From the IMG/VR virus record IMGVR_UViG_3300042922_000225, positions 1-59,393 of that record: a DNA stretch of 59,393 nucleotides. One strand, written 5' to 3'. The notes beneath the pieces were generated by a model. The model was not told the DNA's origin. It ran no database searches and saw nothing but the letters and a program-made list of their open reading frames with translations. Shown here one piece after another: positions 25,298 to 52,406 of this stretch. This DNA is from a virus. Each line of letters begins with the position of its first letter. Within the stretch, counting starts at the first letter, position 1. A program made the position numbers and the translations under genes.

Positions 25298-25312
25298 TGA
25301 TAAACTGGATAG
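25298..25312 (+). promoter_or_regulatory. Late promoter motif copy
   Basis: TGATAAACTGGATAG, ending five bases before the ATG of the 145-aa membrane protein (25317). Confidence 0.65.
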
Positions 25313-25316
25313 TGAT

Positions 25317-25754
25317 ATGAAAACGCGACTTCACAACTGGGCATCGGCCATCTTGGTCATCCCGCGGTGGCTCCTCACCGTTAAGTACGCGCTTTTCGCC
25401 CTGTACGGGGTTGTTACCGCTATTGCAGGCGTTCCCACCATTGCCGAGTCCGTAGATACCGTTTACGCCTTCATCTGGTCTGTCGTTTTCACTGTTGTCG
25501 CGGCTCTTGCGGCTTTCGGGTCGATCTCTGAGAAGTACGAGTGCCTGGAAAAGTGGGCGGCGGTGTCTATGGTGGCGCTTCTTTCGTCTCTGCTGGTCGG
25601 CGCAATTGAGCTTGTGGGCCTTGGGGACCTTAACCGGGCGGGCTTTACGATTCTAGTGCTGATCGTGACCCTTCTCCCCGGGGCTCGGGGCGCAGCACTT
25701 ATCGTTGCAACAACGTCTCGTACGCGCAGTTGGTTTACGAGGAAGCGGTCTTAA
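25317..25754 (+). CDS. Four-helix membrane protein, 145 aa
   Basis: Hydrophobic segments near residues 20-40, 47-66, 80-98 and 108-128 (YALFALYGVVTAIAGVP, VYAFIWSVVFTVVAALAAF, AAVSMVALLSSLLVGAIEL, GFTILVLIVTLLPGA) give four transmembrane helices with a basic C terminus. Membrane proteins just ahead of terminase genes occur in many actinophages. The function is unknown; a lysis or exclusion role is possible. Confidence 0.7.
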   Translation: MKTRLHNWASAILVIPRWLLTVKYALFALYGVVTAIAGVPTIAESVDTVYAFIWSVVFTVVAALAAFGSISEKYECLEKWAAVSMVALLSSLLVGAIELVGLGDLNRAGFTILVLIVTLLPGARGAALIVATTSRTRSWFTRKRS

Positions 25755-25755
25755 C

Positions 25756-26103
25756 GTGGAGAGTTTTGCAGCGTGGATGCCCGCTATTGTCGGCATTATT
25801 GCCCTGGGTGGAACAGTTATCGTCCGGTTCCTGCCCAACAAGGACCGCCGGGAGGGATCGTGGCAGGAAGTAGTGACTGAGAACCGAAGCCTTCGAAGCG
25901 ATCTCGAAGAACTCCGCGAGAGGTTCGAGAAGTTCGAGCAGAAAACTAACGTTCGAGTTGGGGCGCTGTCGAACATGCTCCACCAAGCCGCCGATACCTG
26001 GCCTCAGGATTCCCCGGGACCCTACTTCGACCGCCGGGACCTGGATGCGCTGGAGATCACCGACATTCCGTACGTCTGGCGGGGCCGGTACCGTTCGAAC
26101 TAA
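25756..26103 (+). CDS. Membrane-anchored coiled-coil protein, 115 aa
   Basis: GTG at 25756, directly after the upstream stop. One N-terminal transmembrane helix (WMPAIVGIIALGGTVIVRFL) precedes a coiled coil (ENRSLRSDLEELRERFEKFEQ) and a soluble tail. The shape resembles holin-associated or spanin-like proteins, but it stands far from the lysin. Probably works with the four-helix protein upstream. Confidence 0.65.
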   Translation: MESFAAWMPAIVGIIALGGTVIVRFLPNKDRREGSWQEVVTENRSLRSDLEELRERFEKFEQKTNVRVGALSNMLHQAADTWPQDSPGPYFDRRDLDALEITDIPYVWRGRYRSN

Positions 26104-26120
26104 TCTGAGAGTTTCCTGAG

Positions 26121-26153
26121 AACCCTTCCGTTTGGAGGGGTTTTCGTGTTTTT
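26121..26153 (+). terminator. Intrinsic terminator
   Basis: AACCCTTCC (26121-26129) pairs with GGAGGGGTT (26134-26142) across a GTTT loop, followed by TTCGTGTTTTT. Confidence 0.8.
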
Positions 26154-26187
26154 ACGGCTAGGGTAGGAGAAGAGAGAAGGAGGGGCT

Positions 26188-26583
26188 ATGCCCAAGAAGG
26201 CTAAGAAGTACGAGGACAAGCCCCTGTTTGCCCCAGGCCAGCGGGTGGCGATTCTTACCAAAGACGACTACGCTGGAATGACGGGCGAGGTGGCGGGTTT
26301 TACCGGGGATGAGTATGTCGTTCTTGTTGACGGAACGGGCGAGGATCTACTCTTCAAGGAGGACAAACTCATGGTAACCCCTGCCGAGTACCCCGCCGTA
26401 GACCCCGCCCACTACTCCTACCCCGGGGGCGCACAGGTCATCGACATCACCCGCCACATGGGGTTCCTAGAGGGCAACGTCGTGAAGTACGTCGCTCGTG
26501 CGGGCCGGAAGGGCGATAAGCTGGAGGATCTTCTGAAGGCGAAGAAGTATCTGGAATGGGCCATTGAGGATGCGCAGTCATGA
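26188..26583 (+). CDS. DUF3310-family protein with N-terminal KOW/SH3-like domain
   Basis: 131 aa. The C-terminal half (DPAHYSYPGGAQVIDITRHMG, LEGNVVKYVARAGRKGDKLEDLLKAKKYLEWAIED) fits DUF3310, a phage family seen with nucleotide metabolism genes. The N-terminal half (FAPGQRVAILTKDDYAGMTGEV) looks like a KOW or SH3 barrel. GAAGGAGG precedes the ATG. Confidence 0.75.
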   Translation: MPKKAKKYEDKPLFAPGQRVAILTKDDYAGMTGEVAGFTGDEYVVLVDGTGEDLLFKEDKLMVTPAEYPAVDPAHYSYPGGAQVIDITRHMGFLEGNVVKYVARAGRKGDKLEDLLKAKKYLEWAIEDAQS

Positions 26584-26825
26584 GTGACCTGGGAAAGATC
26601 AAGGACGGTTCACCTCGGGCCTTCCGGGACAAGATTTTCGGACAGCGAGGGGTTGTTACTCAACTCAGCCCCTCTCAGAGCGTAGACGGCAAGATTCGTT
26701 ACGTTTTTCACCCGGACGACATCACTGACACCGAGCTTTCCTTCTTCATTCGGGTTTTGGAGGTTCGAGAAGGCGCGGAAGCCGATATGGAGATGATCTA
26801 CAAGAAGGTAGCTGAAAGTCGATGA
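26580..26825 (+). CDS. Hypothetical protein, 81 aa
   Basis: ATG overlaps the upstream stop (ATGA). The first half (AFRDKIFGQRGVVTQLSPSQ) may be another small barrel; the end is helical (EGAEADMEMIYKKVAESR). Family unknown. Confidence 0.6.
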   Translation: MSDLGKIKDGSPRAFRDKIFGQRGVVTQLSPSQSVDGKIRYVFHPDDITDTELSFFIRVLEVREGAEADMEMIYKKVAESR

Positions 26826-26965
26826 CCCGCACAACCGAGCACGAATACCACCCCGACCGTCCACTAATCCACTTCGGGTCTCCCGTAGGCGCTAAGTATT
26901 GGCGCGAGAGGGTCCGGCCCATTTACCGTGAAGACAAGCCCGAGAGGCGCAAGCGTGAGCACTGA
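26822..26965 (+). CDS. Hypothetical basic protein, 47 aa
   Basis: ATG overlaps the upstream stop (ATGA). MTRTTEHEYHPDRPLIHFGS, then KYWRERVRPIYREDKPERRKREH, is basic and aromatic. Family unknown. Confidence 0.55.
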   Translation: MTRTTEHEYHPDRPLIHFGSPVGAKYWRERVRPIYREDKPERRKREH

Positions 26966-27128
26966 AGTAGGCGCAATACACATTTCCTACTACCTGGACG
27001 AGGAAGGTGAACTCGTCTCTGGGGTTTCCGTAGAGGGTGACATGCCGATGGTGGTCGTTATCGGACTCCTGGAAATGGCAAAAGACACGGTACTTGCAAC
27101 ATCTTACGAAGAGGACGAAAATGACTGA
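26955..27128 (+). CDS. Hypothetical acidic protein, 57 aa
   Basis: GTG at 26955 overlaps the upstream gene by 11 nt. VSTEVGAIHISYYLDEEGEL, then MVVVIGLLEMAKDTVLATSYEEDEND, is a small beta-alpha acidic protein. Family unknown. Confidence 0.55.
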   Translation: MSTEVGAIHISYYLDEEGELVSGVSVEGDMPMVVVIGLLEMAKDTVLATSYEEDEND

Positions 27129-27279
27129 CTGGTTGGCGCTTAACGAAGTAGAAGAGCGAATCCACTCGATCTACATGTGGTGGAGTATCACTGCCCCGGG
27201 CGTGTACCCCAAGGAAGAGGGCGAGCTTGCAGCGCTGTGGGCGATCTTTGACCGGGCAGTTGCGGAGGGTAAGGCGTGA
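27121..27279 (+). CDS. Hypothetical protein, 52 aa
   Basis: ATG at 27121 overlaps the upstream gene by 8 nt. MTDWLALNEVEERIHSIYMWW is helical with a Trp-rich patch. It ends in AVAEGKA with a GTGA overlap to the next gene. Confidence 0.55.
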   Translation: MTDWLALNEVEERIHSIYMWWSITAPGVYPKEEGELAALWAIFDRAVAEGKA

Positions 27280-27515
27280 AGGCCCTTTGGAGCGGCATTA
27301 ATTACATCTCCGAGGGAAATCCGTGGATTACGGGTCTTTGCCTAGTTTGGCTGGGGTGCATCGGTTTCTTGCTTCTAGGTCTTTTGGTCATCCCCGTTGT
27401 TGCCGCGTTTCACGGAGAGCCGAGCGTTCTTTGGTTCTATGCACCGATAGCGTTGTTCTCGTTTGTTATGTGGCGCGCTGTGAAGTGGGATTCTAAGAAG
27501 GAGGGCCGTCGATGA
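27276..27515 (+). CDS. Two-helix membrane protein, 79 aa
   Basis: GTG at 27276 overlaps the upstream stop. Two transmembrane helices (WITGLCLVWLGCIGFLLLGLL and VLWFYAPIALFSFVMWRAV) are followed by a basic end (KWDSKKEGRR). Function unknown. Confidence 0.6.
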   Translation: MKALWSGINYISEGNPWITGLCLVWLGCIGFLLLGLLVIPVVAAFHGEPSVLWFYAPIALFSFVMWRAVKWDSKKEGRR

Positions 27516-27706
27516 ACGAAGAAATCATCGCACGATGGGTTGCCGCTGAGATGGTCGCAGAGGGCGTCGTTACCCGCAAGGACGGCGTGCTGATTGTGAG
27601 CGCGTCTGGGCGGGACTTCATGATCGAGGTTAAGGCTTTTGAGATTACCGAGCCTAAGACCGCGGTGAAGATTTTGACGGAGGTTGAAGGTGGTCGAACC
27701 GATTGA
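27512..27706 (+). CDS. Hypothetical protein, 64 aa
   Basis: ATG overlaps the upstream stop. MNEEIIARWVAAEMVAEGVV, followed by a strand-rich part (KDGVLIVSASGRDFMIEVKAFEI). Could be a small winged fold. Family unknown. Confidence 0.6.
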   Translation: MNEEIIARWVAAEMVAEGVVTRKDGVLIVSASGRDFMIEVKAFEITEPKTAVKILTEVEGGRTD

Positions 27707-27851
27707 GCCCGATTCTTGCCGGTACTGCGATACGCCTAAAACCCGGCACGCCATCCAATGGGTTGACGGTTTAGGCTACCACAACTGGATTACCCCAACA
27801 GACGAACAGAGATTGTCCCGGATGAGGAATCGCAGGGCAGGGTCCGAATAG
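27690..27851 (+). CDS. Putative zinc protein, 53 aa
   Basis: GTG at 27690 after GACGGAGG. CRYCDTPKTRH gives a CxxC plus His; it ends basic (RLSRMRNRRAGSE). Last gene before the 27891 terminator. Role unknown. Confidence 0.55.
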   Translation: MVEPIEPDSCRYCDTPKTRHAIQWVDGLGYHNWITPTDEQRLSRMRNRRAGSE

Positions 27852-27890
27852 CCTGCTGCACTGGAAAGTAACCTCCTCTGTTGTTGACGG

Positions 27891-27928
27891 CCCCCTTCTC
27901 GCTAACCCGCGGGGAGGGGGTCTTCTTT
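27891..27928 (+). terminator. Strong intrinsic terminator
   Basis: CCCCCTTCTCG (27891-27901) pairs over 11 positions with CGGGGAGGGGG (27910-27920), followed by TCTTCTTT. It isolates the structural operon. Confidence 0.85.
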
Positions 27929-27944
27929 CGTATAAGGAGTGCGC

Positions 27945-27957
27945 TGATAAACTGGCT
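27945..27957 (+). promoter_or_regulatory. Late promoter motif copy ahead of terminase
   Basis: TGATAAACTGGC, just after the terminator and before GGAGG and the terminase small subunit gene. First late promoter of the structural region. Confidence 0.65.
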
Positions 27958-27974
27958 TTAGGAGGAAATGGCTT

Positions 27975-28499
27975 ATGAGTGATGAAGTGGCGATCCCAGA
28001 CCCGAACCGGGTGACCAAGTACATCTGGCGTAACATTGGCAAACGCAGCGCCCGGGAGATGGCCCAGGAACTCGGAGTCAGCCCCGAGGAGATCCTGCGG
28101 GCTAAGCGTGAGCTTGTCGAGGGCGTGGACGAGCTTACGATTCAGCTTCAAAAGGCTAAGCTGATGGAGTCCCTTCAAGAGATCGCGGATGACGCCAAGG
28201 AAGCGGCCATGAACGCCTCCGACGAGCGCAATAAGGCGGGTCTTTATAACGCCGCCGCCGGTTCCATTGACAAACTTCTCAAGGAATTCAACCGGACCTC
28301 CAAGAACGAATCCGAAGCCCTCAACGCCCTTAACCGAGCCCGAATTCAGGAGCTTGTGGAGCTTGTCCAGGAAACCGTTGACGAATCGGTGATCGAACTT
28401 TCCACCCGGTACGAAATTCCCGAACAGGACATCTACGACGTGTTCAACACCCACCTGGGGCGGGCCGCAGAGCGCCGGGACGCGGAGCTTAAGCGTTGA
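27975..28499 (+). CDS. Terminase small subunit
   Basis: 174 aa, helical and charged. The N terminus has an HTH-like segment (SAREMAQELGVSPEEILRAKREL) that would bind packaging DNA; long central helices (LQKAKLMESLQEIADDAKEAAMN) would form the oligomer. Its stop overlaps the TTG of the large subunit gene, as usual for terS-terL pairs. GGAGG precedes the ATG. Confidence 0.8.
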   Translation: MSDEVAIPDPNRVTKYIWRNIGKRSAREMAQELGVSPEEILRAKRELVEGVDELTIQLQKAKLMESLQEIADDAKEAAMNASDERNKAGLYNAAAGSIDKLLKEFNRTSKNESEALNALNRARIQELVELVQETVDESVIELSTRYEIPEQDIYDVFNTHLGRAAERRDAELKR

Positions 28500-30118: not shown

Positions 30119-30125
30119 GGCTCAC

Positions 30126-30138
30126 TGATAAACTGGAA
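30126..30138 (+). promoter_or_regulatory. Late promoter motif copy ahead of portal
   Basis: TGATAAACTGGAAG ends five to six bases before the portal ATG (30144). Confidence 0.65.
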
Positions 30139-30143
30139 GTACG

Positions 30144-31673: not shown

Positions 31674-31677
31674 TCTC

Positions 31678-31690
31678 TGATAAACTTGTA
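31678..31690 (+). promoter_or_regulatory. Late promoter motif copy ahead of protease/scaffold
   Basis: TGATAAACTTGTAAAG ends just before the ATG at 31696; a variant with T in place of G after TAAACT. Confidence 0.6.
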
Positions 31691-31695
31691 AAGAG

Positions 31696-33056: not shown

Positions 33057-34201
33057 TGGCACTCGACCTTACTTGCGGCGGTCGCCTTAACGTCAGCCCG
33101 ATGGTGACTGAGCGTAGCGTTCAGCGCATGGCTCAGATTGTTGAGGGTATCAAGCTCGGTGGATACGCTGGTGAGCGTGCCCGCACGGACTTCAAGGAGA
33201 CCCTGACCACCTCTGACGCCCCCTACTCGTTCGCACAGCTTCTGAACATCCGGAACCTGCCGCTCTACGATGAGGCTCCCGTCCAGTGGAACCAGATCGC
33301 CAGCACCGAGAGCGTCCCGGACTTCCGTCCCACGTCGTTCTACTCGCTGCGTTCGAACTTCGCTACTCTGGGTCACGGCAACGGCACGGGAGGCAACCTG
33401 GTTGCTCCCAAGGTCCCGGAGCTGGGCTCGTATGTCGAGGCTTACGGTTACTCGGAGGAGGCCGTTCAGGTCGCCGTTGAGAAGCGAGGCTTCGCGTGGG
33501 GTATCTCGCTGGAGCGAGTCGTTAACGACCCGACCCGCGCGTACTCGCAGGTCCCTAACGACATGCTGAACGTCGGCACCAAGACGGATGAGTACGTTGT
33601 CTTCAGCGCCCTCGTTGACGGTGCCACCGCCGCGTCGCAGGTTGAGGGTGGAGTTGACCTGGTTACGGGCGACACCGTTCCGGCTAACCCCGTCATCTCG
33701 CCCGCCGCTATCCGCGTCGCCCTCCGGAACATCTCGGCCCGCACGGACGACCAGGGTAACAAGATCCCGCTCGCCCCGCGCTACCGCGTTGTGGTTTCCC
33801 TTGGCGAGGGTGACACGGTTGAGTGGATGCTCCAGGAGGCGGGCAACATCATCCGCGTCCAGGATGGCAACATCACCTACGGTGCCCCCGGTGCTGGTGG
33901 TCTGAACCGTATCGCTGGCGTCATCGAGTCGGAGTTCATCCCGGAGGGCTCGTGGTACCTGGTCCCGGACGCTGGCAGCACGGTTCGCCCGTCGCTGGTT
34001 CGTGTTCAGCTCCAGGGCTACACCGCGCCGGAAGTTTACGTCGAGGGTACGCCCGTGCCTGTTCTCGGCGGCGCTTCGAACGACCCGTTCCGCGCGTTCT
34101 CGTGGCACGACGACTCGGCCCGCTTCAAGTTCCGCATGTTCACCAACGCGGCGTTGATTACTCAGGATCAGCTCTCCTGGAGTGATGGCTCTGAGGCATA
34201 G
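33056..34201 (+). CDS. Major capsid protein (HK97 fold expected)
   Basis: 381 aa. Position after scaffold and decoration genes, size, and low-complexity-free alpha/beta composition support the call. It has a long N-terminal helical arm ([33 protein letters not shown]) and an A-domain region ([32 protein letters not shown]). Codons are strongly biased to C-ending forms, as in highly expressed genes. Confidence 0.85.
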
Positions 34202-34205
34202 AGTC

Positions 34206-34220
34206 TGCTAAACTAGAAGT
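34206..34220 (+). promoter_or_regulatory. Late promoter motif copy after the capsid gene
   Basis: TGCTAAACTAGAAGTAG lies before a terminator and the HNH gene. A similar copy follows the HNH gene (34787), so the endonuclease is bracketed. Confidence 0.5.
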
Positions 34221-34225
34221 AGCAG

Positions 34226-34263
34226 GCGAGCCCCCGTGGGAAACTGCGGGGGTTTCGCCTTTT
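34226..34263 (+). terminator. Intrinsic terminator of the capsid operon
   Basis: GCGA-G-CCCCCG pairs with CGGGGG-TT-TCGC around TGGGAAACTG, followed by CTTTT. Confidence 0.8.
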
Positions 34264-34278
34264 CTAGAAGGAGATTGT

Positions 34279-34797
34279 GTGTGTAGCGTCGAGGGCTGCG
34301 AACGAAAAATGAAGTGCAAGGGCATGTGTTCAATGCACTACGACCGACTTCGTTTACGCGGAACGGTGGAACTAACGCGTCCATCCACCGAGGGGGAATG
34401 CCAGCTACTCGGGTGCGATAACCGAATAGCGTCAAAGGGTTACTGCAAGTTGCATTACGAGCGCATACGCCGAAATGGCACTCCCGGGATCGTAGGTACC
34501 GGCAGGCGTCCCAGAGGGGCGGGAGCCGATCACGGTGGGTACGTCCGAGTGCGCGTTATGCGGGGAGGGGTGGAGACAAAGATATTTGAGCACCGATATG
34601 TGATGGAGCAACATCTGGGCCGGGAACTGGAACCCCATGAGAACGTCCACCACATTAACGGGGTCCGAGACGACAACCGGATCGAGAACCTGGAGTTGTG
34701 GAGCACATCCCAGCCTAAGGGCCAACGAATTGAGGATAAGACCGCTTGGGCAATTGAGTGGTTGAAGGCCTACGCGCCCGACAGGCTGGTAAACTAG
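34279..34797 (+). CDS. HNH homing endonuclease with CxxxC fingers
   Basis: 172 aa from GTG 34279 (AGAAGGAG upstream). Two N-terminal fingers ([24 protein letters not shown] and [24 protein letters not shown]) have the repeated pattern C-x4-C...GxCxxHY. The nuclease core is [13 protein letters not shown], then [21 protein letters not shown]. It interrupts the capsid region and is bracketed by late motif copies. The fingers match those of the endonuclease at 39419-40138. Confidence 0.85.
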
Positions 34798-34799
34798 TA
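34787..34799 (+). promoter_or_regulatory. Late promoter motif copy
   Basis: TGGTAAACTAGTAAG, overlapping the stop of the HNH gene and preceding the 76-aa virion gene (34820). Confidence 0.5.
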
Positions 34800-34819
34800 A
34801 GAGAACCGAAAGGAACCCA

Positions 34820-35050: not shown

Positions 35051-35068
35051 CCCACAATCTCACACTTC

Positions 35069-35103: not shown

Positions 35104-35123
35104 GACATGAGAAAGGTCTAATC

Positions 35124-36476
35124 ATGCCCCGTCAGCCCGACAGGACCCTCCGATCCGGCACCGCAGACTACACCGTCTTGGTGGACGAGAAGGGCGTGCC
35201 TTACAAAGCCGGAGTGACCATCCAGCAAGTCGAGGGCGGCTTCGACCCCACAGGACTTGCTACCGATGCCAAGCAGGATGAGATCGTTACGGCCCTGGGC
35301 GCTGTGGCGGACGCAGTTTCCACGGAGAGTGCTGTCACTATCCTGGACGACGAGCTTCCGCCCGTGCAGGGCCAGGCCACCTCCAACAAGCAGGACGCCA
35401 TTATTTCGGCACTGAACACCCTGGCTAGCCGGATGGACATGCCCCTGGACGTGGAGGTCGGTAACGATTCGATTACGGTCTCCATTCCCTCGCTTCCGCT
35501 GGCTGACGGCGCTGCTACCTCTGCCAAGCAGGATCAGGCTTTGGAGGTATTGGGTGTCCTTCGGGACATCTTTCAAAACGGAACCCTGGGAGTTACCGGG
35601 GAACTAGGGCTTAAGCCCGCTGACATTGCCGCGCTGAAAACCGTCACCCTAGACAACCCCAGCATCGCCATTACTTCGTCTTCGCCTCTTTCGGTAAACC
35701 TGCCGGGAGTATCCACAGCGGACAAGCAGGACGCAATCCTGGCTCGCCTCCAGACGCTTATCGACAACTCCCTGGCACCCCGGCCTATCACCGATAACAG
35801 CGGGTCTATCACCGTGGACGGCGCTGTGGGTATCTCCGGCCCGGTCCAGGTCGAAGACAACGGCAAGTCTCTCACCGTGGATGGCATGGTAGCGGCCACT
35901 CAGTCCGGCCCCTGGAATGTTACGGTTACAGACGGATCAGGACCCCTTACGGTAGACGGCTCAGTCGCGGTCACAGACGCCACAGGAAACGGCCTGACAA
36001 GCGCTACAGCAGCGCCCGGAACCTCCGACCGGGGTCTTGTCGTCCGGAACATTCCTTCCGGCACTCAGGCGGTCTCAGGAACGGTTGCGGCCACGCAGTC
36101 CGGCACCTGGACCATGAATGTCAACTCCGCCCCTTCTGCCACCGCCCCAGCGCTCACCCCGTTCCGCACCACGTCCCTTACTGCCACGCCCCAGCAGATT
36201 AAGGCTTCCGCAGGGCGGGTCTACCAGTATAGTTTCCACAACCCCAACAACGCACCTGTTTACGTGCACTTCTGGGGTCTGCTGGCGGCTAACGTCACGC
36301 CCGGAACTACGGTGCCCGCCGTGACTCTCGGCGTTCCCGCGGGCTCGGTACTGGACGGTTACTGGACGGTCTCCCCGGCGGCTTTTGCGAGTGGCATTAC
36401 GGTCTCGGCCTCCACATCGTCTGCGGGGACAGGTGCGCCCAACACGGGACTTCTGGCCCAGGTCGGCTACGTCTGA
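35124..36476 (+). CDS. Virion fibre-like protein with KQD repeats
   Basis: 450 aa. Four copies of a motif of the form [AT]x(A/N/D)KQDxIxxxL occur near residues 50, 89, 135 and 201 (TDAKQDEIVTAL, TSNKQDAIISAL, TSAKQDQALEVL, TADKQDAILARL). Beta-repeat segments follow (VAATQSGPWNVTV, VAATQSGTWTMNV). The C-terminal 110 residues look like a beta-sandwich (YQYSFHNPNNAPVYVHFW). Placed between capsid and connector genes, it is probably a capsid-attached fibre. GAAAGG lies upstream of the ATG. Confidence 0.65.
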   Translation: MPRQPDRTLRSGTADYTVLVDEKGVPYKAGVTIQQVEGGFDPTGLATDAKQDEIVTALGAVADAVSTESAVTILDDELPPVQGQATSNKQDAIISALNTLASRMDMPLDVEVGNDSITVSIPSLPLADGAATSAKQDQALEVLGVLRDIFQNGTLGVTGELGLKPADIAALKTVTLDNPSIAITSSSPLSVNLPGVSTADKQDAILARLQTLIDNSLAPRPITDNSGSITVDGAVGISGPVQVEDNGKSLTVDGMVAATQSGPWNVTVTDGSGPLTVDGSVAVTDATGNGLTSATAAPGTSDRGLVVRNIPSGTQAVSGTVAATQSGTWTMNVNSAPSATAPALTPFRTTSLTATPQQIKASAGRVYQYSFHNPNNAPVYVHFWGLLAANVTPGTTVPAVTLGVPAGSVLDGYWTVSPAAFASGITVSASTSSAGTGAPNTGLLAQVGYV

Positions 36477-36727
36477 TGCCGGAGCTTAAGCCTACGGGCA
36501 AGATCATCGCACGAGGTCAGTCAGGGTTCTCAGTGCTCAGTACGGGTGTTGACATCGCGTTTGACCGTCCTATGCCGGAAGGTTCCACCTACAAGGTCTT
36601 CTACCGCCAGATATCAGGTGTGAACGTTGGACTCCCGTCAACCTCGAACCAAACCCCTACTGGATTCCGGGCTTCAGTTGGCATAGGCGTTGCCGCACAG
36701 TTTGAGTGGCTGGTGATTGAGGACTGA
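36476..36727 (+). CDS. Small beta-rich virion protein, 83 aa
   Basis: Starts in the stop of the fibre-like gene. MPELKPTGKIIARGQSGFSVLSTGVDIAFDRP and VGIGVAAQFEWLVIED read as a beta-sandwich, like bacteriophage receptor or H-type fibre ends. Likely works with the 450-aa protein. Confidence 0.6.
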   Translation: MPELKPTGKIIARGQSGFSVLSTGVDIAFDRPMPEGSTYKVFYRQISGVNVGLPSTSNQTPTGFRASVGIGVAAQFEWLVIED

Positions 36728-36740
36728 TAAGATTGAATTA
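36725..36740 (+). promoter_or_regulatory. Degenerate late motif copy left of moron 1
   Basis: TGATAAGATTGAATTAGACG matches the copy right of the moron (TGATAAACTGGATTATAGACG at 37434) closely, so the moron lies between related sequences. Confidence 0.4.
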
Positions 36741-37424: not shown

Positions 37425-37433
37425 CGTGCCGCC

Positions 37434-37446
37434 TGATAAACTGGAT
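37434..37446 (+). promoter_or_regulatory. Late promoter motif copy ahead of connectors
   Basis: TGATAAACTGGATTATAG, 22 nt before the adaptor gene (37469), directly after the moron terminator. Confidence 0.65.
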
Positions 37447-37468
37447 TATAGACGTTTGGAGAGAGTTT

Positions 37469-38768: not shown

Positions 38769-39193
38769 CAAGCGAAGAATCGGTCCAAGAGGCCATTATC
38801 GAGGACCTGAAAGCTGCCCTTGTCGAAGAGGTTTACGAGTCCCGCTACGTGGAGGCCCAGCACCTTAAGAAGACTAGCCGGGGAGACCTCATCCCGTTCT
38901 ACATTGTGGACTTCGGGGACCTCGGTCAAAACGGCGCGCGGAGCTTTGTAGGGCCTCGCGGAGATGACTATGAAATCCCGATTTACACGCAGGCGGTTGC
39001 GGGTAACCCCCGCCGGGCGCGCCTTCTCGCCAACAAGCTGAACGACATTTTGCTGGGGAACGGCTACGACTGGTCAGGCCAAGTCCGTAAGCGCATGGGG
39101 GGCGGCGGTTCTTTGCCGGTGAACGTCTCAAGCGATGCCACCGAAGGATACGCTACTCCCCGAACGTTCGCTGTGACAATCCAGTTCAACTGA
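38765..39193 (+). CDS. Tail terminator
   Basis: 142 aa overlapping the upstream stop (ATGA). Alpha/beta pattern with EESVQEAIIEDLKAALVEEVYESRYVEAQ, then IVDFGDLGQNGARSFVGPRGDDYEIPIYTQAVAGN. Size and order match lambda gpU-like terminators that cap the tail tube. Confidence 0.65.
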   Translation: MTSEESVQEAIIEDLKAALVEEVYESRYVEAQHLKKTSRGDLIPFYIVDFGDLGQNGARSFVGPRGDDYEIPIYTQAVAGNPRRARLLANKLNDILLGNGYDWSGQVRKRMGGGGSLPVNVSSDATEGYATPRTFAVTIQFN

Positions 39194-39204
39194 TAGAATG
39201 GAAT
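39191..39204 (+). promoter_or_regulatory. Late promoter motif copy
   Basis: TGATAGAATGGAATAG, ending 4 bases before the ATG at 39209; the stop codon of the terminator gene is inside it. Confidence 0.55.
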
Positions 39205-39208
39205 AGAT

Positions 39209-39418: not shown

Positions 39419-40138
39419 CTAATCCCGCTTGAACATGGGTGGTCGGCTAATAACGTCGGCCACCTTTCTCATTCTCTCGGCGTCGTCTCGACACATTCCC
39501 GCCGCCGTGTTGCAACCGCTGCAAAGATAAGCCACAACGCACTTCCCGCAGGAACGGCCTGCTTGCGGACAACATGAGTGATCGTGGTGGATGTGAAGGT
39601 CCTTGCCCTCCCCGTCAAACCCGCAAGCCTCGCATGTTCCGTTACGCATCAGGTAAGCCAACTCATCCCAGGTCAAGCCAAACCGCTGGGCGCGACCCGA
39701 GTGCTTATTACACATTCCGTTCTGCCCCGTCCGTTCGCACCTAAAAACGCGGCAGGGGTATGTCCTGTCCTCCGTCCAGGGTGCCGCCCCGGAATCCCGC
39801 ACCGATTTGTAATGACGCTCGCAGTAGCCCCGCACGTCTACAGCCCGGTTGCACCCGTCGAACTTACAATGTGTCCCCGATCCCGGGCCATAGGTTTCCC
39901 CCGTCCTGAGCCACTTCATGTAGTGAGACTTGCACCACCCCCGGGTGCGCGCGTAGGCTTGACAACCCTCGTGGCCGCACAGCGGGCGTGGGCCGTTCAC
40001 CCCTCGGGATTGAATGGGTCTAAGGGTCCCGCCCTTTCGATACTGGATCTGATGTGATTGGCACAGACCAGTGTCCCGGAAGTTCAACCGGTTCCAGCAT
40101 CCATCGAAGGCACATGGGGTTGTATCGTTTTTAATCAT
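39419..40138 (-). CDS. Endonuclease VII-like homing nuclease, antisense
   Basis: 239 aa on the strand opposite to its late neighbours. Four fingers of the type Cx3-4Cx...GxCxxHY (for example CAFDGCWNRLNFRDTGLCQSH and CKFDGCNRAVDVRGYCERHY) precede the nuclease core typical of recombination endonuclease VII (CEACGFDGE, LHIHHDHSC, CGKCVVAYLCSGCN). It lies between two late motif copies and three bases after the 68-aa gene. Its finger type is shared with 34279-34797. Confidence 0.85.
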   Translation of the reverse strand: MIKNDTTPCAFDGCWNRLNFRDTGLCQSHQIQYRKGGTLRPIQSRGVNGPRPLCGHEGCQAYARTRGWCKSHYMKWLRTGETYGPGSGTHCKFDGCNRAVDVRGYCERHYKSVRDSGAAPWTEDRTYPCRVFRCERTGQNGMCNKHSGRAQRFGLTWDELAYLMRNGTCEACGFDGEGKDLHIHHDHSCCPQAGRSCGKCVVAYLCSGCNTAAGMCRDDAERMRKVADVISRPPMFKRD

Positions 40139-40182
40139 CGCTCAATCGTACCACACTTATCTCAGGCCATTCTACCGTCGAA

Positions 40183-40197
40183 TGATAGACTAGAGTA
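40183..40197 (+). promoter_or_regulatory. Late promoter motif copy
   Basis: TGATAGACTAGAGTAG, between the antisense endonuclease and the first tail tube gene. Confidence 0.55.
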
Positions 40198-42032: not shown

Positions 42033-42034
42033 GC

Positions 42035-42050: not shown

Positions 42051-42054
42051 CTCC

Positions 42055-42069
42055 TGCTAAACTGGGATA
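42055..42069 (+). promoter_or_regulatory. Late promoter motif copy ahead of chaperones
   Basis: TGCTAAACTGGGATAG, followed by a hairpin-rich leader of about 80 nt before the tail assembly chaperone gene. Confidence 0.6.
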
Positions 42070-42153
42070 GAGCACAAATAGCGTGCAAGCCCCCGGTCTT
42101 TCGGCTTCTAGGCTGGAGGGTCGGGGGTCACGCTTTTGATTGAGAGGGAGAAC

Positions 42154-42741
42154 ATGACTGACGTTACGCCTAACCCGAAGACGCTTGACCTGGGAGCGAT
42201 TCTTGCCGGGATTTCTTACCCCAAGGACACTGTAGAGGTCTGGCTCGATGAGGCAACGGCCTACGAGATCAGCAAGGCGGATGCCGCTATCAAGCGCGCT
42301 GAGCTTATGGGGGACGCCGAACTGGTGTCTAAGCTGGAAACCGAGCGCGAAAAGCTGGTGGAGCTTGGGGCTTCCTCCCGGCTGGTTTTCCACCTGACTG
42401 GCGTTTCCCGAAAGGTCAAGGACGACATTATCACCAAGACCGATGAGAAGTTTAAGCCCGAGTATAGCTTCATGGGAACACGCGTGCCAAACCGGGAGGC
42501 GGACGACTACCACGCTAACTTGCGCTGGGCAGTCCACATTGAAAAGTTCGTGGCCGCTGACGGCTCCGAGCTTGTAGCCCCGGGGCCTGAAAGCATCGAG
42601 AAGTTCCGGGATCTAGCCCCCGCACCCGCAACCGAGGCTATCGAAAAGGCGATCACCAATCTTTCCGAGGGTGCCAAGAGCGGGTTTGAGTCCCTTGCCC
42701 AGGAGCACGCTTTTTTGTCACAGCCCTCACCCGGGGCGTAA
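42154..42741 (+). CDS. Tail assembly chaperone (gpG-like)
   Basis: 195 aa from ATG 42154 with GAGAGGGAG upstream. Acidic and helical (YEISKADAAIKRAELMGDAELVSKLETEREKLVEL), located between the tail tube and tape measure as in lambda G. A slippery site T TTT TTG at 42711-42717 lies eight codons before the stop, allowing a -1 shift into the next frame. Confidence 0.8.
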   Translation: MTDVTPNPKTLDLGAILAGISYPKDTVEVWLDEATAYEISKADAAIKRAELMGDAELVSKLETEREKLVELGASSRLVFHLTGVSRKVKDDIITKTDEKFKPEYSFMGTRVPNREADDYHANLRWAVHIEKFVAADGSELVAPGPESIEKFRDLAPAPATEAIEKAITNLSEGAKSGFESLAQEHAFLSQPSPGA

Positions 42742-43163: not shown

Positions 43164-43164
43164 A

Positions 43165-43205
43165 GCACAGCCCCGTTTACCCCGGTAGGCGGGGTTTTGC
43201 TGTGC
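43165..43205 (+). terminator. Intrinsic terminator / long hairpin
   Basis: GCACAGC with CCCCG pairs with CGGGG-TTTT-GCTGTGC across the region; the T-rich bulge follows the inner stem. Ends the chaperone unit. Confidence 0.7.
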
Positions 43206-43207
43206 CC

Positions 43208-43221
43208 TGATAAAATGGATA
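43208..43221 (+). promoter_or_regulatory. Late promoter motif copy ahead of tape measure
   Basis: TGATAAAATGGATAAG, 28 nt before the tape measure ATG. Confidence 0.6.
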
Positions 43222-43249
43222 AGAGGCGCTTTTATCGACGGGACATTGC

Positions 43250-46200: not shown

Positions 46201-46336
46201 TCAGGTCACGCTTTCTCCAACGTCCATTCAGCAGCTTGCAATGGTCATGGACAAGATCATTTCCCTCGATGGCCGGGTGGTCGGAGAAACCGCATCACGT
46301 TCGTACCAGACCGGAACTACGGTCGGAAAATACTAG
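43250..46336 (+). CDS. Tape measure protein
   Basis: 1028 aa, the longest gene, placed after the chaperones. The N-terminal third carries the TP901/phage tape measure pattern (SELRDELQALSTELPVSFQGLSEIASLGAALDIP, AAAGFGRLAAYLEIPQEQFDALGSAIL). A hydrophobic region near residues 385-530 (LGQFFTRMAVGILAAVAAWAALRGGIAL) may insert into the membrane. It ends with a Gly-rich part (GGGSSGRSRSGGGSWGG) and GEYVIPAKHVNQATG, typical of this family. It sets tail length. The Gly-rich part may be flexible. Confidence 0.95.
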   Translation: MADSFNWSVLVDIATKGAKGTEAEIRSVANAVDQLSRENKLGEKDTERHTRTLDRMGKQATSTSGNVDRLANSTNSLRYANYDLASTLLGVSAGLTAVGAATVTAFASQESAFTTVERITTGSAASISELRDELQALSTELPVSFQGLSEIASLGAALDIPAESLAKFTETVAKFSATTGVTTEAAAAGFGRLAAYLEIPQEQFDALGSAILKAGNISVATEEQVLKFAQALALPGARAGISAEQVVGLGATIASFGNINVEGAGSAVTRIFTGIDRAVRDGEESLNNFAAAAGYSAQQFGIAWEQDAGAVLNRVLAGLNSDVGNLATNLDTLGFRNVRDRRVLEALVLQYDKYRSILGETTSAWREGTYMNEAYGLVLDDIASKFQIFLNAVTNAAAAIGSALAPAIGALLDGTTDLLVNLAAFASSPLGQFFTRMAVGILAAVAAWAALRGGIALATAATFAFNTATSLMGGKGIIAGIRGLATALGIYTAATGTATRGTINFATAFKVLGRATVVIGILSLLGQLFLDLGGTVQWAGEQISRFGSFLRSLNWGGAFNEGAEQIRDFGNSVQEWSKHIPRASTATEDFERSGGNLNDVLAQMDDEFGNVEDSAAAMADQVRTLVDYANDLSSVWSRAFEIRFTPQQTLDAITTSFQGIRDASEAARRNIRGLQAEISGLNSDINIQQQFLGIAQQYGDTTRAQAIQANLSKLQADLAEKTASLAEEREKDNKTLVGNSKAAIQNRTTLTGLVQQYQAHIQSLANSGLSTEELQRQTEQLRQDFITQATQLGFNRGELGLYEQSFRDVTVAIQNVPRDITVNFNADPALQAMNEFVARSQQAGQNAGQSFASGFNTGVDDMRMAMEKATSIIQLVKDTWGGGSSGRSRSGGGSWGGLGNPIADWAYDIGRNIRGYADGGYTGRGGKYEAAGVVHRGEYVIPAKHVNQATGLPNADAMGRLQRGAPTRQGYANGGFVRGGGMGGQVTLSPTSIQQLAMVMDKIISLDGRVVGETASRSYQTGTTVGKY

Positions 46337-46338
46337 CC

Positions 46339-46353
46339 TGATAAACTGGTTAG
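46339..46353 (+). promoter_or_regulatory. Late promoter motif copy
   Basis: TGATAAACTGGTTAG, three bases after the tape measure stop and 20 nt before the SGNH hydrolase gene. Confidence 0.65.
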
Positions 46354-46372
46354 AGAGACTTTTAGGAGCCTA

Positions 46373-48187: not shown

Positions 48188-48200
48188 TTTACACCCCTCC

Positions 48201-48215
48201 TGATAAACTAGATAG
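48201..48215 (+). promoter_or_regulatory. Late promoter motif copy
   Basis: TGATAAACTAGATAGG, 30 nt before the distal tail gene. Confidence 0.65.
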
Positions 48216-48244
48216 GAGAGATTCGCTTCCCGAAGGGACCTGCC

Positions 48245-49228
48245 TTGGCATATTCAAACCGTAACCGTTTTTGGTTCGGGACAATGGCAGGTAACTCCGA
48301 ATGGTTCCCCACCCCTGTCCGAGGTGCAGAAATGAACCCGGAAGGGTGGAGCGCAGGCGGCACTCTTCTTAACGGTGGCGGATACCAGTTTAACTCGTTC
48401 GGGTCTCACAAGACCTACACGTTCGAATGGCGCGATTCTTCGGCAATTGAGGCCGCTGCGAGGATGAAAGCGTACTCGGACGGAACCTACGGACGTGGCC
48501 TGATCCAATTTGTTGACCCGTTGATCTACGATAAGAACACCGCGCCTGCTCAGCTTGCAGACCCCTCCATTGCCATTGGATACGAGGGCGTGTCGATGGT
48601 GTACGGGGTTGAGCCGACCGGTACCCCCACCCCGAATCGCCGTAAGAACGCACTGCCGGTAACTTCCGCCGTCTACAGCCTGGGAATCGTGGACGCCGGT
48701 TTCCGGGGTACGGAGGGCGCGGTGTTCCTTCCTATCCCGGAGGGTCACGTACTGGCTCTGGGTGCGGTCTACTCGGCCACGGGTTCAGGCGGCGTGTTCG
48801 TGTCGTGGCAGGACAGCGACGGCGTTATTCACGAGGCTCAGCGCTTGACTGAAGTTGACCCCGAGGCAGACACTCTCCTCCCGGACATCGTAATCCAGGG
48901 CGAAGGCGTATGGGTGTGGGTAGGCAAGGAGTCAGCGGGCTCGGCGTCCGTTACGTTCTCGGCGTTCATTTCCCGCCTAGTTCGGAAGCGTGATGTGGCG
49001 GAGTTCGGCCTGTACGGCGACGGTTTCTACGGCCAGTTCACGTACGGAGAAGCATTCCCGCGCGTTCTCGTTCAGCGCCTCATTACGGGTCCGTGGATGG
49101 CGGGCCTGGGTCACTCGGGGTGCCGGTTCATCGGTAAGCCCACGTACGTTGCCAACGGGCCGTTTAACGGCGGTCAAGCCGGGTTTGCGGCGAGCTTCAG
49201 AGAAGTAGGCCAATGGGTGGTGGCTTGA
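48245..49228 (+). CDS. Distal tail protein (minor tail)
   Basis: 327 aa from TTG 48245 (GAAGGGACC upstream). N-terminal beta-rich part (NRFWFGTMAGNSEWFPTP, NSFGSHKTYTFEWRDSSAIEAAARM) matches actinophage minor tail proteins that follow the tape measure and act as distal tail (Dit) proteins. A galectin-like C-terminal part (VFVSWQDSDGVIHEAQRL, VWVWVGKESAGSASVTFSAF) may bind carbohydrate. Confidence 0.7.
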   Translation: MAYSNRNRFWFGTMAGNSEWFPTPVRGAEMNPEGWSAGGTLLNGGGYQFNSFGSHKTYTFEWRDSSAIEAAARMKAYSDGTYGRGLIQFVDPLIYDKNTAPAQLADPSIAIGYEGVSMVYGVEPTGTPTPNRRKNALPVTSAVYSLGIVDAGFRGTEGAVFLPIPEGHVLALGAVYSATGSGGVFVSWQDSDGVIHEAQRLTEVDPEADTLLPDIVIQGEGVWVWVGKESAGSASVTFSAFISRLVRKRDVAEFGLYGDGFYGQFTYGEAFPRVLVQRLITGPWMAGLGHSGCRFIGKPTYVANGPFNGGQAGFAASFREVGQWVVA

Positions 49229-49229
49229 C

Positions 49230-50759
49230 ATGGGCTACAACCTTTCAATCGACGGCTATGACTACAAGTTCCACCCCGCAGGCTACACTGTCCAAGAAGA
49301 CGCCACCCCGCTTCCTGCGAACGACTCTTTCGGCTCTGTCGGCACCATCGACATCACGCTTCCGATGCCCGATGAGTACGCAGGCGGTCGCACGAACCCG
49401 CTGGTGCGCTTTGGCCCCGAATGGCTGATCGATAAGACCTTCGTGTTCACCGATACTGAGCGCGGATCTATTCCCGGCACGTTCCTCTCGGCTAACGTGA
49501 GCCTTGCAGACGGCACAATCCGAGTCTCCGGGCTCCCCCGTACGGGCATCCTGAACGTGTATAACGTCAACGCGCAGCCTTTCGTGGGTACCCTTGGCAA
49601 TGCGATTGCCTACTACCTCTCCCTTGCGAACGTAACCACGGGCTACAACGTGGACTCGACCCTAGCCGCCCGGTACGTAACCTTCCCGGGTTGGACAGGT
49701 GAGCTTTGGTACCACCTGAAGCAGATGGCGTCCGTCCACAATATCGACATTTCCCTGGTCAACGGGATTATCTACTTCCGCCCTATTCGCCGCCGCACCA
49801 TTGAGCGCGGTGTGGACATCTCCAAGAACCGCGACCTGAACCTGCCTACCCTGGCGCAGGCGGTAGAAGTCTACAACTACAAGAACCGGGCTATCACCAA
49901 CGAACTCGTTTACCCGCCCAAGGGTTGGACCCCAGAGGTGGAAGTCTACAACGTTAACGCCGGGGAGACGGCGGAATACACTCTGGAGCTTTCTTCGTCG
50001 GTGTCCTCTATTCAGACCCCCGTCATGCAGACGAGCGTGACTCCGGGATACGCTGCATCATCGGTATATACGGTTGTGGCAAACGACGGACTTCCCATCC
50101 CCCCGCAGCAGTGGATCAACCACGGCGGACGGTTTGAACTTACGATAAACCCGGACACGGTAACCCTTAACCTCAAGTTGACGGGACCTACGGGAATCCC
50201 GACTGCTTACGGAACGGTAGCTACCAACTTCTCACTTGCTCTCGCTTCGGACTCTACGGGCAACCGCTATTCGACCCTGCGTGTCGTAGGTACGGGTGTT
50301 ATGTTCGATAAAGGCGACCCGCTTAGAATCCGAACAGGAGTCCCCGCGACCAAAGCCCCGACTGAGGTGGGTGTGACGGTCGATAACCCGTTTGTATCCG
50401 ACCTGGACGACTGCTACCGGATCGGTACTCGTGCGGCTCGTGAGTTCGCGTATCCCGCCCCGGACATCTCGGCGGACATTGTTCGGGCTATTCCGCTGGA
50501 CGACGACGAGTGGCTGGGTTCCACCTTCGGTAACGTGGCAGGCGCTCGCGTGTGGGATGCATCTTCTAAGCGCTTCTACCGTGTCCGGGAATCCCGTTTC
50601 AGCGAAGGCTCGATCAGCTACTCCGCGGACGATGACCTGACCTACGGCGACGTGGAAGAACACTTCGACGGCTACACTTACGGCGATATCGAGGACTTGT
50701 ACGACGGGTTCAACTACCTCCAGGTAGAGCGCCGGGGGCTGGTGAACTTTGGAGACTGA
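49230..50759 (+). CDS. Minor tail protein (Tal/baseplate hub-like)
   Basis: 509 aa, starting just after the distal tail gene. Sections such as LWYHLKQMASVHNIDISLVNGIIYFRPI and AVEVYNYKNRAITNELVYPPKGW are typical of phage tail hub proteins (gp27-like folds). It would close the tail tip and hold the downstream tail proteins. Its end overlaps the next start by 11 nt. Confidence 0.7.
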   Translation: MGYNLSIDGYDYKFHPAGYTVQEDATPLPANDSFGSVGTIDITLPMPDEYAGGRTNPLVRFGPEWLIDKTFVFTDTERGSIPGTFLSANVSLADGTIRVSGLPRTGILNVYNVNAQPFVGTLGNAIAYYLSLANVTTGYNVDSTLAARYVTFPGWTGELWYHLKQMASVHNIDISLVNGIIYFRPIRRRTIERGVDISKNRDLNLPTLAQAVEVYNYKNRAITNELVYPPKGWTPEVEVYNVNAGETAEYTLELSSSVSSIQTPVMQTSVTPGYAASSVYTVVANDGLPIPPQQWINHGGRFELTINPDTVTLNLKLTGPTGIPTAYGTVATNFSLALASDSTGNRYSTLRVVGTGVMFDKGDPLRIRTGVPATKAPTEVGVTVDNPFVSDLDDCYRIGTRAAREFAYPAPDISADIVRAIPLDDDEWLGSTFGNVAGARVWDASSKRFYRVRESRFSEGSISYSADDDLTYGDVEEHFDGYTYGDIEDLYDGFNYLQVERRGLVNFGD

Positions 50760-51801
50760 TGTTTTTCCCCGTCGGAACCTCGGTAAGGCTGAGCAATGGG
50801 GCCGGGAGGTAGAGCGCCGGACCCGCTTGATCGACCGCACGGTGGGTATCCGCGACCAGTCATTCTCCGGGGCAGACCGCTACATTTCGTCTTCGGCTAA
50901 GGCCATCGCAGATCAGGCCACTGCTACCCTTGCCGCTTACAAGCTCATCCCCATCCCCGTAAATCTCTCCGCCCACACAAACTCGGTGGCAGTGGGGCCC
51001 GCATGGTCTACGGTTGCAACCCTTACCGTGGCGCTTAACGAGGATATGTCTTTTGCGGATCTCGTGGTGATTGGGGATGCTCAGTTCGATGAAGTACGTC
51101 AAGGCGGTGGCGGAGGTCCTGCGCAGTTCGTGTGGCCCTATCCTCTGGACTACACAACCGACGAGTACGGACCGAGACCGGGAATTGGCGACGGCTTCCA
51201 CAAGGGCCTCGACTTTGCAGGAGGTCCCGCCTCCTCGGGTAACCCGATTCCCGCCACAGCCAACGGCACCGTGATCGCACGGGCTTATCAAGAAGAGCGC
51301 GGTAACTACGTTATCCTCGACCACGGCATGCGGGACGGTAACAATCTCCAGACGTGGTACTACCACATGAACGCTCCTGCTCCGGTGTCAGTGGGTCAAT
51401 CCGTAACTCAGGGTCAGACAATCGGCTACATCGGAAATACGGGTTTGTCGATGGGCGCTCACCTCCACTATGAAACCCGCATCAACGGGGAGCACTTGAA
51501 CCCCCGGGCGTTCATGGACCTCTACGGCGGGGCATCCAGCACCGAGCCCGGCCCCGTTCAGGACATCTACGGGCGTCTGATTATCGGCGGGACGGTGAGT
51601 CAGGAGGAGCGCTACCCCGCAATGGTGGGGGGGACGCCCCTTACCGGTCGGCAATGGACTAAGGTCGTGGCGGGCGGGTCCTTTCCCATTACCGCGTCCA
51701 CAATCTCCGTCCAGTTGCAACTTAAGTCTTCACTCCAACCCGTAGTCATCACCAACACACCTTTCGCATCGATTACAGTTCTAGGGGCAATTAGAGCATG
51801 A
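50749..51801 (+). CDS. Minor tail protein with M23 peptidase domain
   Basis: 350 aa from TTG 50749. The N-terminal 60 residues (TDVFPRRNLGKAEQWGREVERR) are homologous to the start of the next protein and probably attach both to the tail tip. The middle is an M23 metallopeptidase: HKGLDFAGGPA (His and Asp ligands, about residue 150) and HLHYETR (about 238). M23 enzymes cut peptidoglycan cross-bridges, so it likely opens the wall at infection. Confidence 0.85.
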   Translation: METDVFPRRNLGKAEQWGREVERRTRLIDRTVGIRDQSFSGADRYISSSAKAIADQATATLAAYKLIPIPVNLSAHTNSVAVGPAWSTVATLTVALNEDMSFADLVVIGDAQFDEVRQGGGGGPAQFVWPYPLDYTTDEYGPRPGIGDGFHKGLDFAGGPASSGNPIPATANGTVIARAYQEERGNYVILDHGMRDGNNLQTWYYHMNAPAPVSVGQSVTQGQTIGYIGNTGLSMGAHLHYETRINGEHLNPRAFMDLYGGASSTEPGPVQDIYGRLIIGGTVSQEERYPAMVGGTPLTGRQWTKVVAGGSFPITASTISVQLQLKSSLQPVVITNTPFASITVLGAIRA

Positions 51802-52394
51802 GCACTGACGTATTTCCCCGCCGCAATCTTCCCGATAAGGCCGAAGACTGGGGCCGGAAGGTCGAAGAGCGCATTGTGGCCCTCGAAGGCGTCGGTCAAA
51901 TCCTGGGAGGAAAGGCCCAGGGCGTTAACCGTACCCAAGCCTCTTCCCTACAGGACCTCGCGCAGCAACTCGCCCGTCTTGACGCACTTCAGCGATCCAT
52001 CCCACGGTCGGCTGCGATCACCACATCCAACTACAACTTTGGGCTTGGAACTACCGGCTGGAATACCATCGCCGAAACTACACTTTCGGGTTCGGGTTCG
52101 GGCGGCTCGGTAACAGCAGTCACGTCGGGAACCCTGATTTCGGGTGCTGCGGAAACCCTCATCGGAACCCGTTTTAGGTTGGTGCTGAACAACACGAACG
52201 CGTCCCCCGAATTCCCCGGAATGTACACCCCGCAGGGAGCTTTCTACGTTCCTGTCATACCGTCCTACTCGTGGAATTTCACAGGCACTTCCGCAAACGT
52301 CAAACTCCAATGCGCCCCCGAAGCGACCCAGCCCTGGCCGGGCGGAACAGGAAGCCACGTAGCACTCGCCCTTTATGGGTCTTTCTACGGCTGA
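51798..52394 (+). CDS. Minor tail protein, paralogous N terminus
   Basis: 198 aa, ATG overlapping the upstream stop (ATGA). It begins STDVFPRRNLPDKAEDWGRKVEER, like the M23 tail protein, and has a different beta-rich C terminus (YNFGLGTTGWNTIAETTLSGSGSG, ALALYGSFYG). Probably a receptor-binding or decoration part using a shared docking module. Confidence 0.75.
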   Translation: MSTDVFPRRNLPDKAEDWGRKVEERIVALEGVGQILGGKAQGVNRTQASSLQDLAQQLARLDALQRSIPRSAAITTSNYNFGLGTTGWNTIAETTLSGSGSGGSVTAVTSGTLISGAAETLIGTRFRLVLNNTNASPEFPGMYTPQGAFYVPVIPSYSWNFTGTSANVKLQCAPEATQPWPGGTGSHVALALYGSFYG

Positions 52395-52406
52395 TAAACT
52401 TGATAG
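52392..52406 (+). promoter_or_regulatory. Late promoter motif copy
   Basis: TGATAAACTTGATAGGGAGG; here the motif runs directly into a GGGAGG ribosome-binding site before ATG 52416. The upstream stop codon is part of it. Confidence 0.65.

Follow-up and report, generated by a model that had tools for sequence, protein, structure and literature searches.

What is the short sequence that recurs in front of late genes on the plus strand of an actinobacterial virus genome, and what reads it? The genome is a single virus record (IMG/VR IMGVR_UViG_3300042922_000225), analysed over its whole length of 59,393 bases and called the window below. An earlier note on this DNA had listed 17 copies of the element and proposed a phage-specific late promoter of near-leaderless mRNAs, possibly served by a WhiB protein. 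The host of the virus is an actinobacterium. The nearest named relatives are the Microbacterium phages WaterT, Lifes, LeeroyJenkins, Cassita and BarnCat of cluster GB (terminase 79% identical; cluster name from PMC12776033). Leftward genes at both window ends encode replication and unknown early-type functions, and rightward genes at 23.6-53.9 kb encode packaging, capsid, tail and lysis; the labels early and late follow this gene content. We consider it quite likely that the element is a late extended -10 promoter present in many copies, read probably by the host RNA polymerase with its primary sigma factor and without a -35 contact.

The recurrence itself is real: motif search over the genome and its relatives recovers the element, and shuffled sequence never equals the count of TGATAAACT with at most one mismatch (17 matches, 5.9 expected). 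CTGATAAACTGGATAG with at most three mismatches has eight matches, all on the plus strand within 25297-52406, the expected number being 0.24. A weight matrix yields 15 plus-strand sites of at least 15.9 bits, every one at a position of the earlier list, and one such site on the minus strand (3577, upstream of a tRNA). The matrix was trained on the listed sites; independent tests are the de novo searches, selection by TGNTANNNT alone and permuted patterns. Selection by TGNTANNNT alone places 15 of 26 late-region occurrences 12-80 nt ahead of a start codon (chance 10%, p = 2e-9). The pattern TGnTAnnnT occurs before late genes 13 times in the window and 14 times in WaterT, versus means of 1.0 and 0.5 for 19 permuted patterns, and its reverse complement is found once in the same regions of the window. 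Fifteen of the 17 listed copies are solid; those at 24997 and 25258 are weak and lack TG (10.2 and 9.0 bits), and one more weak copy, at 24899 (12.1 bits), had not been listed. The statement that the element precedes most late genes was too strong, as it stands before about 15 of 43; it sits ahead of the first gene in most late transcription units. An exact-motif scan of IMG/VR gave 117 stretches with one match each, two of them on a single 59-kb relative, which by our own estimate is about the number expected by chance. The major tail protein as a query yielded one new relative only, and the sole match of the Rfam scan was tRNA.

In an alignment of 54 sites the kept bases are T0, G1, T3, A4, T8 and G10, with column 5 holding A or G, column 6 A, column 7 A or C and column -1 C. 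In terms of promoter positions, TG occupies -15/-14, the hexamer TARAMT -12 to -7, and G -5. Both structural observations of the earlier note stand: TGnTAnnnT, the form of an extended -10, is kept across the alignment, and a constant -35 is absent, no such column being found from -55 to -12 of the motif frame. Mycobacterial RNA polymerase recognizes TANNNT, frequently without a -35, and is helped by extended -10 and discriminator contacts (PMC12288462); the discriminator optimum is GGG, and TG can bypass the -35 (PMC4598750). Judged by sequence, the conserved bases are those that the host primary sigma would contact, and the element matches the extended -10 plus discriminator of a primary (sigmaA-type) factor.

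De novo search upstream of the annotated late genes of WaterT returns CTGATAgAaTaG, with a 15-column log-likelihood of 115 versus 49-61 at random positions. On gene starts called in house the search gives CTGATAaACTgGat in the window, CTGATAgAaTaGaa in WaterT, and taACTGaTaAactt, CTGATAaACTgGaa and cTGaTAGAATaGaa in the IMG/VR relatives G001, G002 and G003 (records of 57-63 kb), on the late strand only in all of these; the motif in Cassita is cTGaTAgAAT.GAa. All of these finds exceed controls at random positions, and most of the junctions concerned are orthologous. At 24 orthologous late gene starts of the window and WaterT, the element is present in both at nine, in neither at ten, in the window only at four and in WaterT only at one (p = 0.0045). 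As many as seven phages keep it ahead of the portal and protease genes, with varying start distance and surrounding sequence. The literature searched yielded no account of this motif in cluster GB phages.

The early strand carries a different promoter class. Ahead of leftward genes stands TTGACA or TTGACT and, after a 17-base spacer, TAGACT, CATACT, CAGACT or TAGAAT, the consensus form being TTGACA-N17-YARACT. Pooled over five phages, the sequence upstream of genes holds 50 extended -10 sites for the late strand and four for the early strand, and two and 27 -35/-10 sites, respectively (p ~2e-15); the latter class has 0-1 late-strand sites per genome. The early promoters have no fixed base at -5 (G in 17 of 39). 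First-pass expectation maximization on early genes returned mostly Shine-Dalgarno signals, TTGAC being seen only by the -35/-10 scan and by expectation maximization on gapped genes. The promoter at 13071-13099 (minus strand, TTGACA-N17-TAGACT) has the ATG of gene 12621-13064 exactly 6 nt downstream, and the ATG of the helicase gene 11141-12616 likewise lies exactly 6 nt past a -10 (12623-12652, minus strand). Both genes are, by position, predicted to be fully leaderless. Early leaderless genes lie 6 nt from the hexamer in four phages, with one at 7, and this spacing suggests where transcripts of the host polymerase would begin.

Late spacing is bimodal. The start codon lies 8-10 nt past the hexamer at 13 of 51 late sites and at least 15 nt past it at the other 38, with none at 11-14 nt. 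A Shine-Dalgarno match of at least 4 is missing at 11 of the 13 close sites and present at 35 of the 38 distant ones. Such a distribution fits a mixture of near-leaderless and leadered mRNAs and speaks against a translation signal. The predicted near-leaderless set of the window comprises 25317, 30144 (portal), 31696 (protease), 39209 and probably 25015, about one third of the late copies; the 9-10 nt noted earlier for the first four is exact. The proposal of near-leaderless mRNAs can thus be kept for the 8-10 nt subset, while the remaining copies would give leaders with a Shine-Dalgarno box. The late near-leaderless genes lie about 3 nt farther from the -10 than the early leaderless ones. For comparison, nearly a quarter of mRNAs in mycobacteria are leaderless (PMC4633059). 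In WaterT (19165-19232), gene 37 is annotated from 19232; an ATG 9 nt past the late -10 (19183) matches the starts annotated in Lifes and Cassita, and the WaterT annotation of the start is probably wrong. Conservation, position, strand, spacing and the lack of a -35 are direct observations.

The favoured explanation is as follows. In the core C-TG-A-TARAMT-nGA, TARAMT would act as the -10 hexamer, of the actinobacterial form TANNNT, with TG as the extended -10; the G that never varies, two bases past the hexamer, would be the discriminator base that sigma region 1.2 contacts. The element would be read with no -35 contact by host RNA polymerase carrying the primary sigma, and each copy would begin a short late transcription unit, often right after a terminator. 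A start codon 8-10 nt past the hexamer would put the 5' end of the mRNA about 2-4 nt before AUG, because the early leaderless ruler is 6 nt past the hexamer, and such an mRNA would be translated near-leaderless; the remaining copies would give ordinary leaders with Shine-Dalgarno boxes. In early genes this -10 would be paired with a strong TTGACA 17 nt away, and late genes would exchange that -35 for TG and a fixed discriminator. We infer from the observations above transcription from the element, the sigma used, the timing and the transcript start sites.

Several points weigh against this explanation. A plain host promoter leaves the late timing unexplained. The tight consensus is narrower than TGnTAnnnT requires, which could indicate an additional reader. 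The 54 sites were partly selected by a matrix derived from the window, which by itself accounts for part of the invariance of T3, A4 and T8; with selection by TGNTANNNT only, the flanking C and the column-6 A are still strongly enriched and the column-10 G moderately. For the spacing test, part of the start codons were taken from a home-made gene caller.

The best of the alternatives is sigma remodelling, possible though rather unlikely in our view. An early phage protein, perhaps WhiB-like, would bind region 4 of sigmaA and shut off -35-dependent early and host promoters, and extended -10 late promoters would stay active, by analogy with T4 AsiA or Thermus phage gp39. The candidate gene (8209-8550, minus strand) is early-encoded, and its product has four cysteines and a WGVFSG turn. 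It scores 21.7-22.3 bits with Pfam PF02467, under the cut-off of 23.6, and 6e-5 with phrog_472; a homologue is annotated as WhiB in cluster GB. The earlier assignment can be retained as that of a probable divergent member, slightly below the Pfam cut-off. All carriers of the tight motif have a WhiB-like gene in the early region, and in the window, as in AsiA- or gp39-type systems, -35 early promoters are combined with extended -10 later ones that do without any -35. The switch is attractive because WhiB7 binds SigA region 4 (PMC3905903) and phage proteins disabling region 4 spare extended -10 promoters, including the middle and late ones of P23-45 (PMC7403470).

Against it stand the sister phages. 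No WhiB match was found in Roman, Jacko, Tandem and Fork, and yet TGnTAnnnT precedes late genes at 6, 6, 4 and 8 sites, respectively (0.4-0.7 expected), with the same split between spacings of 6-10 nt and Shine-Dalgarno leaders and with some TTGACA-type early promoters; Jacko and WaterT share a host strain, Microbacterium paraoxydans NRRL B-14843. Conversely, Amigo has a WhiB and lacks the tight consensus, and phylogeny alone explains the co-occurrence of WhiB and motif. As a necessary reader, WhiB is rejected on this comparison. As the extended -10 late layout exists in phages without WhiB, the protein is not needed for it; the layout is probably older, and the WhiB-like protein can be kept as a candidate, not required, factor. 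The suggestion of a phage-specific promoter fares no better, since the kept bases are the host primary sigma contacts and the looser form also occurs in phages without WhiB. By these comparisons only the tight consensus, which as such was not found in Fork, Roman, Jacko and Tandem, is clade-specific, and TGnTAnnnT is wider. The simplest reading is a host-type extended -10 whose consensus tightened in the GB-like lineage. Phage L173 (Pan2, ON968453), whose recorded host is the cyanobacterium Pseudanabaena, resembles these actinophages in gene order; it also has extended -10 late sites, and the WhiB-like protein matches it weakly by tblastn. A still more tentative reading is an actinophage sigma-4 switch in which a small early protein, WhiB-like or other, would disable the recognition of the -35 by the host sigmaA and so move transcription from TTGACA early to extended -10 late promoters, with the head genes being translated near-leaderless as a coupled effect. 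If true, a WhiB-like protein would for the first time have a mechanistic role in the late transcription of a phage.

A dedicated late factor of the phage, or an unrecognised sigma-like protein, reading the whole of CTGATARAMTrGA as a phage-specific signal seems doubtful. The consensus is indeed tight and restricted to one clade. However, the kept bases coincide with primary-sigma contacts, TANNNT tolerates the variation seen at hexamer positions 3 (A/G) and 5 (C/A), and early-strand tRNA genes carry the element too. Sigma region 2 (Sigma70_r2) was not found in the window, nor region 4 (Sigma70_r4) in the motif-bearing relatives, although highly diverged forms could escape both searches; a phage-encoded sigma as the late reader was rejected on these results. 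One sub-threshold Sigma70_r4 match was seen in G006, a phage without the tight motif.

Very improbable is a translation signal with no role in transcription, be it GGATAG as a Shine-Dalgarno-like sequence or TGATAA as a tandem stop. The element is close to starts, and the copies at 36725, 39191 and 52392 overlap upstream stop codons. Its distance to the start, on the other hand, varies from 6 to more than 50 nt, and conservation is centred on TGnTAnnnT. The earlier idea of GGATAG as a weak Shine-Dalgarno box fails at both kinds of sites, as the 8-10 nt sites have no match and the farther ones have a separate, real box. Site 40183 comes after a convergent gene and thus has no plus-strand gene to stop; on this site and on the spacing, both forms of the signal were rejected. 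Chance or AT-rich intergenic bias (intergenic gaps are usually AT-richer than genes, and the 54-site alignment has an AT excess, if only a mild one) can be dismissed almost with certainty given 13 occurrences versus one of the reverse complement and a permuted mean of 1.0, and conservation at orthologous junctions.

Along the plus strand of the window, the first solid copy (CTGATAAACTGGATAG, 25297-25312) is followed by gene 25317, whose start is 10 nt past the hexamer and which is predicted to be near-leaderless. The copy at 27944-27959, downstream of a terminator (27889-27922), precedes the leadered gene 27975 (AGGAGG). Spacings of 9 nt are seen at the portal gene 30144 (element 30125-30140, kept before the portal in WaterT, L014 of the comparison set, and in L004-L008) and the capsid protease gene 31696 (31677-31692, kept in WaterT, L004, L006, L007 and L011). 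The element at 34205-34220 (TGCTAAACT) is directly 3' of the major capsid gene and is followed by a terminator-like hairpin (34228-34255) and the HNH gene 34279; the one at 34786-34801 precedes the leadered gene 34820 (GAAAGGA). At 36724-36739 (TGATAAGAT) the element overlaps the stop codon of gene 36476-36727. The copy at 37433-37448 precedes the connector gene 37469, is kept in WaterT, L007 and L011, and lies 3' of a hairpin with a T-run that is terminator-like by eye and absent from the terminator scan list. The next one (39190-39205, TGATAGAAT, kept in WaterT and L011) overlaps the upstream stop codon and is followed by gene 39209 at 9 nt. The element at 40182-40197 follows the convergent endonuclease VII gene, with no plus-strand gene upstream, and precedes a leadered gene at about 40223. 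The HNH gene (34279-34797, plus strand) and the endonuclease VII gene (39419-40138, minus strand) are inserted in the late gene array, and the candidate late promoters that follow them, 34787 and 40183 respectively, would serve the next structural gene.

Further downstream, the element at 42054-42069 lies between the genes of the major tail protein and the tail assembly chaperone, and a hairpin follows it in WaterT and L011. The order of promoter and hairpin in the window (42055-42140) is the same in WaterT (20800-20850) and L011 (15592-15640), where the hairpin is terminator-like, and recurs after the major capsid gene (34206-34255). A new transcript from the 42055 region would therefore begin with the hairpin, which is possibly an attenuator lowering chaperone expression. 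The remaining solid copies precede the tape measure gene 43250 (43207-43222, 3' of the terminator 43179-43195, kept in WaterT), the tail protein gene 46373 (46338-46353), the minor tail gene 48245 or 48332 (48200-48215), and gene 52416 with a GGAGG leader (52391-52406, overlapping the upstream stop codon, kept in WaterT).

The weaker plus-strand copies are TGATAGGCT at 24898-24913, TAGTAGGCT at 24996-25011, 9 nt upstream of the NrdH-like gene 25015, and GCGTAAACTGGATAG at 25258, whose best register is 25255. The NrdH-like glutaredoxin gene is located in different places in the window (25015-25260) and WaterT (33281-33520), and in both phages it is preceded by a late-type element, the one in the window being weak. 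On the early strand, strong extended -10 sites lie upstream of tRNAs at 3577 (minus strand; tRNA-Asn, 3458-3532) in the window and at 42408 (minus strand; tRNA-Leu, 42136-42211) in WaterT, so these tRNAs may be expressed with the late set. Other early promoters on the minus strand of the window are TTGACA-N17-CATACT at 14747-14775, 20902-20930 and 21327-21355, TTGACT-N17-TAGACT at 18713-18741, and TTGACA-N17-CAAACT at 23239-23267 (gene 22846-23214).

Little is known about how actinobacteriophages start their late transcripts, and for a number of "start-associated" motifs there is no explanation. One such repeat now fits a recognizable promoter class; the same genomes hold its early counterpart, and both are readable from sequence. 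Exact start-site predictions follow for about 50 late sites in five phages, and possible wrong annotated starts are flagged. The system is suited to asking how early and late transcription separate without a recognizable phage polymerase or sigma, and how near-leaderless head-gene mRNAs are translated.

The closest functional parallel is provided by the Thermus phages P23-45 and phiYS40, whose layout of -10/-35 early and extended -10 late promoters is like that of the window. In phiYS40, early promoters reportedly are of the -10/-35 type; its middle and late promoters have nothing in common but a -10-like element and give mRNAs that are said to be mostly leaderless. The host polymerase reportedly read all its promoter classes in vitro, timing coming from something else, which calls for caution in concluding a switch here. 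P23-45 has extended -10 promoters for its middle and late genes, and gp39 spares them (PMC7403470). However, the phages and host phylum are unrelated, no gp39 relative was identified in the window phage, and its late set, timed by gene content, is only partly near-leaderless.

The Start-Associated Sequences (SAS) of cluster K mycobacteriophages (GGGATAGGAGCCC) and cluster EF Microbacterium phages (GGGAAAGGACCCC) are also short asymmetric repeats near starts with GGATAG-like bases. They are located at the ribosome-binding site, and in cluster K are confined to non-structural genes, half of them with inverted repeats (PMC3203893, PMC7302621). The window element, in contrast, is -10-like, stands at a variable distance before genes of the structural and lysis regions, and is not a 13-bp sequence at a fixed position of the ribosome-binding site or one limited to non-structural genes. 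The resemblance in spirit with differing sequence remarked on earlier is borne out, as consensus, position and gene set all differ. The 18-bp repeat TAGaCTATaGGTgTaAgC of cluster EC Microbacterium phages is likewise oriented and intergenic and begins with TAGACT, a possible -10. It lies 21-30 bp before starts, mainly of non-structural genes, in phages that encode a sigma factor (PMC7302621), whereas the window element differs in sequence and precedes structural genes. With this start and spacing, the EC repeat may also be a -10-based promoter. Cluster O mycobacteriophages have predicted SigA-like promoters, 8-9 per genome by a two-hexamer search and some of them leaderless, which resemble those of the window in their predicted sigmaA type; the accessible text of that report describes no split of promoter classes between early and late genes (PMC4351075).

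With extended -10 promoters of the primary sigma (actinobacterial sigmaA type) the element shares TG one base before the hexamer, TANNNT, the lack of a -35 and the discriminator G. It differs in that here, as known from sequence, a phage repeats one narrow version at most late units. We regard it as a real, conserved family of predicted sigmaA-like extended -10 late promoters with a near-leaderless subset.

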